In this document: positions 7,201-40,754 of the stretch, piece by piece
Layout: the number at the start of each line of letters is the position of its first letter
Position numbering within the stretch: the stretch's first letter is position 1
The notes under the pieces: generated by a model
The model's database searches: none
What the model saw: the letters and a program-made list of their open reading frames with translations, nothing else
What the model was told of the DNA's origin: nothing
Origin: a virus
Length of the DNA stretch: 40,754 nucleotides
Virus record (IMG/VR): IMGVR_UViG_3300028837_001857
Location: 1-40,754 of that record
Strand: one strand, 5' to 3'
Translations under genes and position numbers: made by a program

Positions 7201-7272
7201 AGCCACAAAGACACAAAGACACCAAGGAAATTTTTATAAAAAAACGCTTCGTGCCTTTGTGTCTTTGTGGCG
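7201..7272 (+). repeat. Palindromic repeat family A, copy 1
   Basis: A long imperfect inverted repeat: a left arm beginning GCCACAAAGACACAAAGACA, an A/T-rich loop, and a right arm ending CTTTGTGGCG. It lies between the two terminase genes, and the TerL GTG start falls inside the right arm. Confidence 0.9.
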
Positions 7273-9372: not shown

Positions 9373-9403
9373 AACATCGAACGTCCAACATCGAATGGTG
9401 AAT
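9373..9403 (+). repeat. Dispersed repeat family C, copy 4
   Basis: ACATCGAACGTCCAACATCG, intergenic. It ends at the start codon of the repetitive gene at 9402. Confidence 0.75.
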
Positions 9404-9929
9404 GAAAAAAATAAAGAAAAAGAAAAGGGCTGAATATCAAGCTAAATATCGCAAGGCCAATAAAGAGAAAAAAGCTGAATATGACGCTGAATATCGTATG
9501 GCCAATAAAGAGAAAATAGTTGAACATAACGCTAAATATCGCCAGGCCAATAAAGAGAAAAAAGCTGAATATGACGCTGAATATCGCCAGGCCAATAAAG
9601 AGAAAATAGCTGAATATCGCCTGACCAATAAAGAAAAAATAGCTGAACGAAAAACTGAATATCGTATGGCCAATAAAGAGAAAATAGTTGAATATAACGC
9701 TAAATATCGCCAGGCCAATAAAGAGAAAACAGTTAAATATAACGCTGAATATAGTGCTAAAAGAGTAGAGAAAATGCCCGAAGCATATATTAAGCAGTTA
9801 TTGGGAAAACAATATAATATTTCTGTGGCAGATGTGACGATTGAAATGATTGAATTTAAAAGAGAACTTTTAACATTTAAAAGATTAGAAAGGGGGTTGA
9901 AAGATGGGATTAATAGCGCAAGAGATTAA
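9402..9929 (+). CDS. Repetitive basic protein with YRxANKEK repeats
   Basis: A 175-residue protein whose first 120 residues are seven or eight near-identical units of about 15 residues with the consensus AEYxAxYRxANKEK (one unit is shorter, 11 residues). The rest (YIKQLLGKQY ... ITIEMIEFKRELLTFKR-like) resembles the C-terminal helix seen in small phage proteins linked to HNH/endonuclease VII families. No nuclease residues are visible. The repeats predict a long, charged, possibly single alpha-helix or coiled coil. They are also tandem at DNA level (about 9430-9760). The next gene overlaps it by 26 bp. Function is unknown; binding to nucleic acid is possible from the charge. Confidence 0.65.
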   Translation: MKKIKKKKRAEYQAKYRKANKEKKAEYDAEYRMANKEKIVEHNAKYRQANKEKKAEYDAEYRQANKEKIAEYRLTNKEKIAERKTEYRMANKEKIVEYNAKYRQANKEKTVKYNAEYSAKRVEKMPEAYIKQLLGKQYNISVADVTIEMIEFKRELLTFKRLERGLKDGINSARD

Positions 9930-37593: not shown

Positions 37594-38388
37594 ATGCCGA
37601 CAAAAATTGAGTGGTGTGACGAAACTATTAACCCGATAGTGGGATGTTCAAAGATCAGCGAGGGGTGTCAAAATTGCTATGCTGAGAAAATGGCATGGCG
37701 GTTAAAATGTATGGGCATTCCAAAGTATCAAGACGTTGTGGATCGCAATGGTTGGACCGGGAAAATAGCCGGTGATCTGGAACAGTTTCATTCACTCCCT
37801 AAAAAACCAAAAAAAGTCTTTGTGGTATCAATGGGCGATTTGTTCCACGAAAATGTGCGAAATGGATCAATCGCCATGGTTTTTTATGCCATGCGGGATT
37901 ACCCACAACATACCTATATGATTTTGACAAAACGGCCTGATTGTATGGCATATTTTTTAAAACGCAGAATTAGCCCAAATTGTATCAAAGGAATACCAAA
38001 TCTATGGCTTGGCGTAACAGCCGAAAACCAAAAACGATGGGATGAACGGTGTTTCTTTTTAGATATTCCAGCATCAAAGCATTTTGTATCGTTTGAACCG
38101 TTATTAGAGGCGATTGAAATAGAATCTTATCCATGCCCTCAATGCAACAGTTTAAATCCTCAAATTGTTTGGCCTTGCCCTTATTGTAATGGCAGGCGTT
38201 TTAAGTGGCCTGATTGGGTCATCGCTGGTCCCGAAACCGGTCCTGGCAAAAGAGAATGTAAGCCTGAATTGATTGAATCACTATACGACCAATGCTATGA
38301 AGCAGGGATACCGTTTTTCGATAAAACAAAAAACAACTGGATAGCAAGGGAGTTTCCCGAAAATACCGGTCAAAACATGCACATATAA
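37594..38388 (+). CDS. Phage Gp37/Gp68 (DUF5131) three-Cys-motif protein
   Basis: A 264-residue protein of the DUF5131/Gp37-Gp68 type. The start TKIEWCDETINPIVGCSKIS is followed by EGCQNCYAE, giving a Cx6Cx2C three-cysteine motif that may hold an iron-sulfur cluster, as in radical SAM-like enzymes. Later conserved parts are VFVVSMGDLFH, ILTKRP, NLWLGVTAENQ and WVIAGPETGPGKREC. An inserted CPQC ... CPYC zinc-knuckle near residues 180-200 is extra. The family is common in phages and its reaction is unknown; nucleic-acid modification is a possible role. Confidence 0.82.
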   Translation: MPTKIEWCDETINPIVGCSKISEGCQNCYAEKMAWRLKCMGIPKYQDVVDRNGWTGKIAGDLEQFHSLPKKPKKVFVVSMGDLFHENVRNGSIAMVFYAMRDYPQHTYMILTKRPDCMAYFLKRRISPNCIKGIPNLWLGVTAENQKRWDERCFFLDIPASKHFVSFEPLLEAIEIESYPCPQCNSLNPQIVWPCPYCNGRRFKWPDWVIAGPETGPGKRECKPELIESLYDQCYEAGIPFFDKTKNNWIAREFPENTGQNMHI

Positions 38389-38442
38389 CCATTGACCAAG
38401 ATGAGATCGTCCAACATGCGGCCTTTGAGAGAGTCGGTTTTT

Positions 38443-38667
38443 ATGAGTGATACCGGATATATACGATTAAACAAACTATCGAAGGATATCGGCGTGTGTG
38501 AGCGCACGGTCCGGGACTGGATCAAGCAGGGATTGATCTGTTATCGGCCATCCAGGCGCCTGGTGCTAATCAAACAAAAGGATCTGGACGCTTTTTTGTC
38601 CAAATTCCGGGACGACAAGAGCCAGGTCGATAATTTGGTTGATTCAATAACAAAGGATATGGCATAG
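38443..38667 (+). CDS. xis: Excisionase-like MerR/HTH_17 protein
   Basis: 74 residues (from ATG 38443). YIRLNKLSKDIGVCERTVRD followed by WIKQGLICYRP and a LVLIKQKDLDAFL end match the small winged-helix excisionase/HTH_17 type. It lies directly before the integrase, as usual for Xis. Alternative starts at 38392 (TTG), 38401 and 38416 would add N-terminal residues with no clear Shine-Dalgarno. The gene symbol is a functional guess based on position and fold. Confidence 0.7.
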   Translation: MSDTGYIRLNKLSKDIGVCERTVRDWIKQGLICYRPSRRLVLIKQKDLDAFLSKFRDDKSQVDNLVDSITKDMA

Positions 38668-38705: not shown

Positions 38706-39845
38706 ATGGGTGTCATTGTTAAAGAGAAAGTAAAGGACTCCGGAGAATGGTGGATATATGTCCACCATAACGGCCGGAAGAAAACTAAAAAGATCGGAGG
38801 TCAAGATCTGGCCCAAGCCGTGGCCAAAAAAATCCGTGCGCGTTTGGCATTGCAAGATTTTGGATTCATGGCCCAAAAAAAAGACCCGGTCCCCACATTC
38901 AAGGAAGCCGCCCGCCTCTGGTTGGCCGAGCCACAGAACTGGCGGGAATCCACCAGGGAGACGTATGTCTTCAACCTGGAAAAGCACATTTTTCCCAAGC
39001 TCGGCAAAACGCCGATCAACATCCTTGCCCGTAAAAAAATAAAGGCATTTTTCAACGACCTGATCAAAGGCGGCATGTCCCCTAACACCGTGGCGTTGAT
39101 CCGTGCCCCGATCCAGGGCGTGTTATGTCTGGCTCTGGATGAAGAATGGATCGAATTTAACCCGCTGCATAACTTGATCATTAAGAACCGAAAATCACAA
39201 AGCACGGTTCAGCCTCTGACCGATCACCAGGCGGATCAGCTCATGAACCAGGCCAAGGTCTTTATGGATGGGTATTATTACCCGCACTTGCTTTGCTCAA
39301 TACGCACCGGGATCCGTATTGGAGAGCTGCAGGCCATAACTTGGAATGATTTCGATACTGGCGCACGAATCCTGGATATTAACCAGAGTTATCGCAAGGG
39401 TCGGATCACCACTCCCAAAAACCACAGGACCCGCCGCGTGGACATCACCCCTCACCTGGCCAGGACGTTAAAGACCCATCAAACCACACAGAAAAAAGCT
39501 GCCCTCAAAGGCGGTTATCAATTCCCAGAATATATCTTCGCTAATCGCAAAGGTAATATTCTGGACCGTGAAACATACAAGAATGCGTTGAATCGATGCC
39601 TGTATGGTGCAGGCCTGCCGCGAATACGGATCCATGACTTACGGCATACATACGCCACGATCCGGCTATTGCGCGGCCATAATATTGGAGATGTGAGTTA
39701 TCAACTGGGTCATAGTTCTATTAAGATTACATACGATATCTATGGCCACTGGATGCCAGGAAAGTTTAAAAACGAGGTTGACGAGCTTGATAATTTACCA
39801 GGCGATATTTCATTAGAGGAGACCGAAGATGGGCGTTGTAGTTAA
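38706..39845 (+). CDS. int: Tyrosine integrase
   Basis: A 379-residue site-specific recombinase that integrates and excises the phage. The N-terminal ~55 residues form an arm-binding-like domain (MGVIVKEKVKDSGEWWIYVH). A SAM-like core-binding domain follows (WRESTRETYVFNLEKHIFPK), then the catalytic domain: Arg in TGIRIGEL near residue 203, HDLRHTYAT near 309-317, His in LGHSS near 335, and the Tyr nucleophile in DIYGH near 345. AAGGAGG lies 7 nt before ATG 38706, better than the GTG at 38667. The next gene overlaps by 17 bp. Confidence 0.93.
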   Translation: MGVIVKEKVKDSGEWWIYVHHNGRKKTKKIGGQDLAQAVAKKIRARLALQDFGFMAQKKDPVPTFKEAARLWLAEPQNWRESTRETYVFNLEKHIFPKLGKTPINILARKKIKAFFNDLIKGGMSPNTVALIRAPIQGVLCLALDEEWIEFNPLHNLIIKNRKSQSTVQPLTDHQADQLMNQAKVFMDGYYYPHLLCSIRTGIRIGELQAITWNDFDTGARILDINQSYRKGRITTPKNHRTRRVDITPHLARTLKTHQTTQKKAALKGGYQFPEYIFANRKGNILDRETYKNALNRCLYGAGLPRIRIHDLRHTYATIRLLRGHNIGDVSYQLGHSSIKITYDIYGHWMPGKFKNEVDELDNLPGDISLEETEDGRCS

Positions 39846-40314
39846 AGAAAAGGAGAAAGGCTCTGGTGAATGGTGGGTGTTTATTTTTTGCAATGGACTA
39901 AAAAAAACAAAGAAAATAGGCAAAGATAAGAAGCTGGCATTTGAGATAGCAAAAGGCATCGAAGAGAGATTTGTTTCAATTGGAAAGTTTAAACAACCAG
40001 TGCCATATAGGTCTGTTAAGAATAGAAAAAGGGAAGGGCGCATATATATTATGTCTAATTCAGGTCATAATTATTTAAAAATCGGTGTTTCTCAAAATTC
40101 TATTAAAAAAAGAAAACAAGATCTTTCTACAGGTTCGCCAACGCCATTTAAAATAGAATATTCTAAAAAAGTTAAAGATTGTTTTATGGCCGAGAAAATG
40201 GTCCATAAATTATTAAATTATAGTAGGGTTGAGGAGAGTAGGGAATTTTTTGATTCATCTTTGGATGTTGCGAAAAATATTATTAAAAGGGTTGTAAAAA
40301 TTGTGGACGGATAA
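39829..40314 (+). CDS. Integrase N-terminal domain fused to T5orf172 (GIY-YIG-like) domain
   Basis: 161 residues. Residues 1-50 (MGVVVKEKEKGSGEWWVFIF, then NGLKKTKKIG) copy the integrase N-terminus; 22 of the first 31 residues are identical. Residues 70-158 match the T5orf172/MUG113 domain of the GIY-YIG nuclease superfamily: IYIMSN, YLKIGVSQNSIKKRKQDLST, EYSKKV, FMAEKMVHKLL and REFFDSSL. GAGGAG precedes the ATG and it overlaps int by 17 bp. The DNA is much more AT-rich than int, so it is not a recent duplication. A nuclease or regulator that binds attP arm sites is the natural hypothesis; no such family is known to me. Confidence 0.85.
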   Translation: MGVVVKEKEKGSGEWWVFIFCNGLKKTKKIGKDKKLAFEIAKGIEERFVSIGKFKQPVPYRSVKNRKREGRIYIMSNSGHNYLKIGVSQNSIKKRKQDLSTGSPTPFKIEYSKKVKDCFMAEKMVHKLLNYSRVEESREFFDSSLDVAKNIIKRVVKIVDG

Positions 40315-40322
40315 GATCTTAA

Positions 40323-40501
40323 ACTGCCCCTATGCGACTCCAGGAATCGAGTAGAATCAAAATCTATAATGATTTCAGTAGCCTTTTATGTATTCCGTCA
40401 AATCCGCCGTTTGATGGGCAGTTCTAAGCACTTGAAATCATTAAACCTCGTATAGTAATAGGGGTAGTTTTTCAGTATTACGACTGCCCCTATACTGCCC
40501 C
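40323..40501. other. attP: Candidate attP: core plus arm-type sites
   Basis: Core candidate: CCGTCAAA (40395-40402) and TTTGATGG (40410-40417) are inverted copies (7 of 8) around a 7-nt spacer, the geometry of tyrosine recombinase crossover sites. Arm-like sites ACTGCCCCTAT occur at 40323-40333 and 40483-40493, a shorter ACTGCCCC at 40494-40501, and an inverted copy ATAGGGGTAGT at 40458-40468. A perfect 10-bp inverted repeat (AATGATTTCA at 40368, TGAAATCATT at 40433) brackets the core. It lies just after the integrase operon. Confidence 0.7.
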
Positions 40502-40678
40502 AGCCTCCAAAACTTTCCATGGAATGAATCCGGAACAACTTTAAACAAATCGGTGAATATGAACGATCGGACTGTGCAATCATATTTATTTTTTTTTGTC
40601 TCATTTTCCTACAACATCCACACCCTGCAACCCAAAATGTATTTAAATCAATCCAAAGTCCAACACCAACCATATCAT
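40502..40678. other. Non-coding right end, nothing recognised
   Basis: 177 bases between the attP candidate and the adapter. There is no supported gene. An eleven-T run within TATTTATTTTTTTTTTG lies near 40588. On a circular genome it would join to the tRNA at position 1. Confidence 0.5.
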
Positions 40679-40754
40679 CTGTCTCTTATACACATCTCCG
40701 AGCCCACGAGACTAGGCATGATCTCGTATGCCGTCTTCTGCTTGAAAAAAAAAA
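40679..40754 (+). other. Illumina Nextera adapter and poly-A (artefact)
   Basis: CTGTCTCTTATACACATCT (40679-40697) is the transposase mosaic end. CCGAGCCCACGAGAC (40698-40712), an 8-nt index TAGGCATG (40713-40720), the ATCTCGTATGCC ... CTTG P7 end (40721-40744) and ten A follow. It is read-through sequence left in the assembly and not phage DNA. Confidence 0.98.

Follow-up and report, generated by a model that had tools for sequence, protein, structure and literature searches.

The stretch of DNA analyzed here (hereafter the window) is a linear IMG/VR phage record of 40,754 bases, the right end of which carries excision and integration genes followed by an additional, intact ORF, all on the plus strand. 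An excisionase-like HTH_17 gene (38392–38667; HTH_17 E 3.7e-8; PHROG excisionase/regulator E 1e-7; TIGR01764 score under that model's cut-off) is located upstream of int, which encodes a tyrosine integrase of 379 amino acid residues (38706–39845; Phage_integrase E 3e-22; PHROG integrase E 2e-66). As the int start we preferred ATG 38706, with AAAGGAGG upstream, over GTG 38667, since it is better placed. The additional ORF (39829–40314) encodes a 161-residue protein, referred to in the following as the fusion, and lies between int and attP. As had been claimed in the original prediction, it overlaps int (end at 39845), the overlap being 17 nt, and a good ribosome-binding sequence, GAGGAG (39816–39821), is found 7 bases 5' of the ATG. 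Downstream of the fusion gene come 366 bp of non-coding sequence, and the record ends in 74 bases (40681–40754) that are presumably an Illumina Nextera adapter (CTGTCTCTTATACACATCTCCGAGCCCACGAGAC, an index, flow-cell sequence and poly-A), so that this contig end looks like an assembly artefact; an ORF at 40553–40753 extends into it.

Several other features of the record were noted. A DUF5131 gene (37594–38388; E 4e-63) lies just 5' of the excision and integration genes, and a tRNA-Met gene (3–75) opens the record and has no repeat in common with its right end. A dyad-like repeat (CCACAAAGGCACAAAGACACCAAGG...CTTAGTGCCTTAGTGCCTTAGTGGC) occurs in seven mostly intergenic copies of 76 nt each (at 7204, 15730, 17459, 18128, 20727, 27941 and 28437), two more short repeat families (ACATCGAACATCGAA.. 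and CAACCGTGAACCGTGAACC..) are present, and the ORF at 9402–9929 is built of 45-nt repeats (EYRxANKEKxAEY).

The C-terminal part of the fusion, which the original prediction had assigned to the T5orf172 nucleases of the GIY-YIG superfamily, does contain such a domain: residues 70–155 (40036–40293) match the T5orf172 profile (PF10544) with an E-value of 2.3e-14 and 54.1 bits, against a curated cut-off of 20. All of the family-invariant residues are kept (Y73, K84, G86, R95, E122, H126 and E139), including the Arg and Glu that have been described as catalytic. The AlphaFold2 model of the fusion (mean pLDDT 83) consists of two well-folded domains joined by a low-confidence linker (residues 52–69; 39982–40035), and the whole model matches models of viral T5orf172 proteins with E-values as low as 8e-9. 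Comparison of the model with PDB folds gave no significant match, and profile searches of PDB with each half of the fusion returned nothing useful. Residues 14–31 (EWWVFI..NG..KKIG) resemble residues 70–86 (WIYVLSN...LKIG), and MAFFT overlaid both domains; this likeness is probably due to chance. The two domain families were modelled separately. T5orf172 proteins are also listed in PADLOC as the defence candidate PDC-S57 (E 2e-20).

Sequence kinship and the structural model both identify residues 1–51 (39829–39981) as an arm-binding-type domain, the same type that forms the N-terminus of the integrase. The 22 identities to this N-terminus that had been counted among residues 1–31 proved exact, and residues 1–59 match int with an E-value of 6.6e-13. 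A domain search of both halves had been proposed as a check, and its outcome was divided: the nuclease half has the Pfam match described above, and the N-terminal domain of the fusion itself is matched by no Pfam arm-binding model (Arm-DNA-bind_2 was detected in 10 of 50 relatives, with a best E-value of 9.7e-5). The predicted structure has a beta-beta-beta-alpha topology, for which the best fold matches, weak throughout (E 0.29–0.69), include AP2 DNA-binding domains, which rank highest, as well as P4-like and HPI integrase arm-binding domains.

Domains of this type begin many integrases of Desulfobacterota and their relatives. The fusion domain is 52% identical to that of the neighbouring integrase and 58–59% identical to those of some other integrases of this type; the N-terminal domains of the window integrase and of an integrase from another viral contig (L004) are 77% identical. 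We rejected the possibility that the fusion domain is a recent duplicate of the start of the neighbouring integrase, on the basis of these values (77% versus 52%) and of the differing codons. A tree of the short N-terminal domain gives no clear placement; a topology that groups the fusion with the integrases of the window and of L004 is not rejected, and neither is an older origin of the domain within the lineage of the window integrase. Among the integrases compared, K25 and T27 are found only in the fusion, the window integrase and the closest relative of the latter, the L004 integrase, and K6 of the fusion is rare (4 of 45). In the beta2-beta3 hairpin, the fusion alone has F20, C21 and L24, which may alter or weaken DNA binding.

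The arm sites that such domains might read were identified at the 3' ends of the int genes of relatives (L093–L157), inspection of which resolved what plain k-mer counts for a common arm motif, masked by tRNA ends and A-runs, had not. There, a three-unit array of GCAMCC (M = A or C), with steps of 10 and 11 nt, sits within the last int codons and encodes HPSAPYTHP or QPSATYTQP at the end of the integrase; a clear doublet or better is present at 47 of 55 relative int loci. In a comparison of 46 related loci, the identity of residue 27 in the N-terminal domain follows the arm base, Ser occurring with GCACCC in 28 of 28 cases and Ala with GCAACC in 16 of 18; no other column shows so strong a link (Fisher 1.5e-10). 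When mapped on a tree of the catalytic portion, the arm type switches some 11 times and residue 27 some 10 times, and the independent pairs, of which few are well supported, score 4.5 to 0 in favor of the same association (sign test p 0.06). Judged from these comparisons, kinship alone does not explain the covariation. Because residue 27 covaries with a base of the arm site, we conclude, on the evidence of aligned sequences, that the N-terminal domain of this integrase family reads arm sites, in agreement with the role that the original prediction had attributed to it. Thr27 and Lys25 are present in the window integrase, and the arms in the window are of another type, CTGCCCC. Since the fusion shares both residues with the window integrase, it is predicted to read the phage's own arm type and should thus recognize CTGCCCC. 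This amounts to a testable rule for the whole integrase family, in which Ser27 is paired with GCACCC arms, Ala27 with GCAACC and Thr27 with CTGCCCC.

The fusion gene had also been described as lying beside attP, and comparison with relatives confirms an attP next to it, with arm-type sites on both sides of a core at 40364–40414. On the minus strand, this core corresponds to the last codons and stop of the host Mur ligase gene mpl (SNGGFDGIHKRLLKSL*), so that integration would restore the host gene. The closest genomic integrases (L126, L114 and L144) are positioned tail to tail with mpl, either within 9 nt of the mpl stop or with a 3-nt overlap. On the integrase side, the array was located by the register of the arrays of five relatives (40324–40341, plus strand), and comprises unit 2, CTGCCCC (40324–40330), and a degenerate unit 3, CGACTCC (40335–40341). 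Beyond the core lie two single arm-like sites on the minus strand, ACTGCCC (40416–40422) and CTACCCC (40461–40467), and, 96 nt from the core, a far-side doublet on the plus strand, CTGCCCC-4nt-CTGCCCC (CTGCCCCTATACTGCCCC; 40484–40501), which occurs only once in the whole record. The segment 40324–40419 gives a gap-free alignment, in one register, with each of the five relatives, with 55, 59, 58, 45 and 47 of 96 positions identical, compared to an average of 24–25 and a maximum of 43 identities in shuffled controls. An attP within a tRNA gene, the situation of many relatives, was considered and rejected, there being no tRNA match at the right end and the core being mpl.

In one genome (G304), the other end of such an element was found 15.1 kb away and shows the same arrangement, the core being followed by a doublet, CGCACCCTATACGCACCC, at 97 nt. 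No far attachment end was seen in the DNA examined around three of the four elements; the contig of the nearest viral relative (G010), the ends of which were checked for arm sites, is a fragment. The 15.1-kb element (contig 116, 22523–37613; L186:4024 to L144) lies at the mpl 3' end, has a related integrase and encodes Bro-N, primase, GemA-like and resolvase proteins as well as a second integrase, with no capsid or terminase among the scanned ORFs of at least 150 residues. It is possibly a satellite or island at the same chromosomal site.

In relatives at the mpl site, int passes directly into the arm array and core. The window, by contrast, has a different integrase tail and, between int and the array, about 520 nt that consist chiefly of the fusion gene. 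This cassette (approximately 39798–40320, plus strand), which is absent from the five relatives compared (L126, L114, L144, L131 and L129), parts int from its arms; relative to the same five, unit 1 of the array is missing, while units 2 and 3 hold their positions. The cassette therefore sits at the very array that the fusion's own domain is predicted to recognize. The fusion gene has a GC content of 32% (37% in its first part and 29% in its second), compared to 48% for both the contig and the integrase gene. Its presence is sporadic, with a single instance in the collections searched. The same two-gene arrangement, which the original prediction had proposed to look for in other phages, did not recur: no T5orf172 gene was present at 59 other int loci, and among the T5orf172 genes found in 375 Desulfobacterota genomes, none encoded an arm-type domain and none had an integrase within the flank that was inspected. 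Nor was a second fusion detected in viral scans (with the whole protein, two N-terminal domains and T5orf172 sets), in phage or plasmid records, or in the sampled genomes.

A nuclease joined by a linker to an arm-reading domain, the gene for which is located at an arm array, has a foreign base composition and occurs sporadically, looks like a site-directed nuclease. We therefore favor, at about even confidence, the view that the fusion is an arm-site-directed nuclease acting on the attachment regions of related elements that lack the cassette, in homing or in exclusion; its binding, cutting and purpose are what we infer. The N-terminal domain, derived from a tyrosine integrase, would bind the short CTGCCCC-type arm sites that flank the attP of this phage family, and the flexible linker would let the T5orf172/GIY-YIG domain nick or cut nearby DNA. 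The likely targets would be the attP, attL or attR of related elements in which the int-arm-core junction is free of the cassette. Repair of a cut at such a junction could copy the cassette into the rival (homing); alternatively, a rival using the same chromosomal site could be excluded. By displacing unit 1 of the three-unit array, the cassette could protect the phage's own DNA. In a more specific form, an arm-reading domain from the phage's own integrase lineage would have been turned into a nuclease against the attachment sites of competitors at the same address, with insertion into the array conferring self-immunity; this would be an exclusion system of a kind not described before, and we regard it as possible but on balance doubtful.

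Some findings count against the nuclease view. Since arm sites of its own type remain in the phage attP, the nuclease would need further means to avoid cutting itself, which is the main weakness of this view. The prediction that the fusion reads the phage's own arms is challenged chiefly by the hairpin residues that no other integrase compared has. In addition, the fusion is a single instance for which the searches found no relative that could show conservation or selection.

The original prediction had also proposed a role in setting the direction of recombination, and a regulator of this kind, co-transcribed with the integrase, would occupy the arm sites and lower or bias integration or excision, its nuclease being silent or only nicking. 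The translational overlap with int, the arm-reading residues common to the fusion and the window integrase, and the adjacent attP are all in keeping with such a role, for which the GIY-YIG enzyme I-TevI, which also represses where no cleavage site is in reach, provides a precedent (PMC10448857). However, an excisionase-like gene is already present upstream of int, related int loci manage without a fusion gene, the conserved nuclease residues would be superfluous in a pure competitor, and the base composition of the gene is foreign. Because its catalytic residues are intact, its composition foreign and its position cassette-like, a targeted nuclease, whether of the Odn or the homing type, fits better than a dedicated directionality factor, and we consider the regulator, the foremost of the alternatives, unlikely.

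A closer analogue of Odn, the phage nuclease described below, would have captured its domain from the integrase of a rival and would cut rival arm sites unlike the phage's own, leaving the phage safe. That precedent itself (PMC8263062; PMC10448857), the higher overall identity of the fusion to some other integrases than to its neighbour, hairpin residues 20, 21 and 24, unlike those of all integrases compared, and the 15-kb element at the same host gene in one genome would all be accommodated, but the arm-choice residues T27 and K25 match the window integrase rather than the integrases with GCAMCC arms, and a strict analogue thus strikes us as distinctly improbable. We think it quite improbable, too, that the gene is a passenger, i.e., a mobile or defence-type T5orf172 gene at the prophage edge, the arm domain of which has no role at attP. 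A single, AT-rich instance at the edge of a prophage, a place where cargo genes accumulate, and the PADLOC listing of T5orf172 proteins would suit a passenger; against it, each half is intact and is predicted to fold well, and it would be an unlikely coincidence for an arm-reading domain to have landed precisely at an arm array. Should the preferred reading, an arm-site-directed nuclease, be correct, the contest for places in the chromosome would extend to a nuclease that recognizes the arm sites of the integrase itself and directly cuts the attachment site of a rival, and the Odn principle, in which domain shuffling gives rise to targeted nucleases, would be widened from replication origins to integration sites.

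The fusion shares features with several known systems. Like the tyrosine integrase arm-binding domains (Pfam Arm-DNA-bind_1/2/4; P4-like and HPI integrases, 3rmp and 3jtz), which read repeated arm sites around attP, its N-terminal domain has a beta-beta-beta-alpha fold, but in the fusion the domain stands apart from the recombinase and is linked to a nuclease instead. AP2-HNH homing endonucleases (PMC10448857) likewise combine an AP2-like three-stranded DNA-binding fold with a nuclease; they differ in nuclease fold and domain order, and are without the integrase-specific sequence kinship. With the free-standing T5orf172 homing endonucleases, genes for which lie at exchange boundaries in phages, the fusion has in common the nuclease domain, a modular DNA-binding part, sporadic occurrence and a position at a between-gene boundary (PMC10448857). 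However, most of these homing endonucleases have zinc-finger domains (200 of the 229 surveyed; PMC10448857), whereas the fusion carries an integrase arm domain, and its homing is only proposed.

The closest parallel is Odn (Gp88) of the Vibrio phage ICP1, a T5orf172 nuclease with a DNA-binding domain like that of a satellite's replication initiator, which cuts the satellite origin (PMC8263062). Both Odn, together with its coliphage homologues (PMC8263062; PMC10448857), and the fusion have a C-terminal T5orf172 domain and an N-terminal domain resembling the DNA-binding protein of a mobile element (42% identity to PLE1 RepA_N for Odn, 52% to int for the fusion). In the fusion, however, this domain comes from an integrase rather than a replication initiator, so that there is no pairing of RepA_N with a satellite origin; the predicted target is the attachment arms and not an origin, the gene adjoins the phage's own integrase and attP, and the activity is putative. 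The original statement that no such system has been described thus holds for the domain pair, in that a limited literature search found no paper on a protein combining an arm-type domain with T5orf172, and fails for the principle, published for Odn (PMC8263062). Joining T5orf172 to a DNA-binding domain from another element's protein is therefore already known, and it is the target class, attachment arms, that is new.
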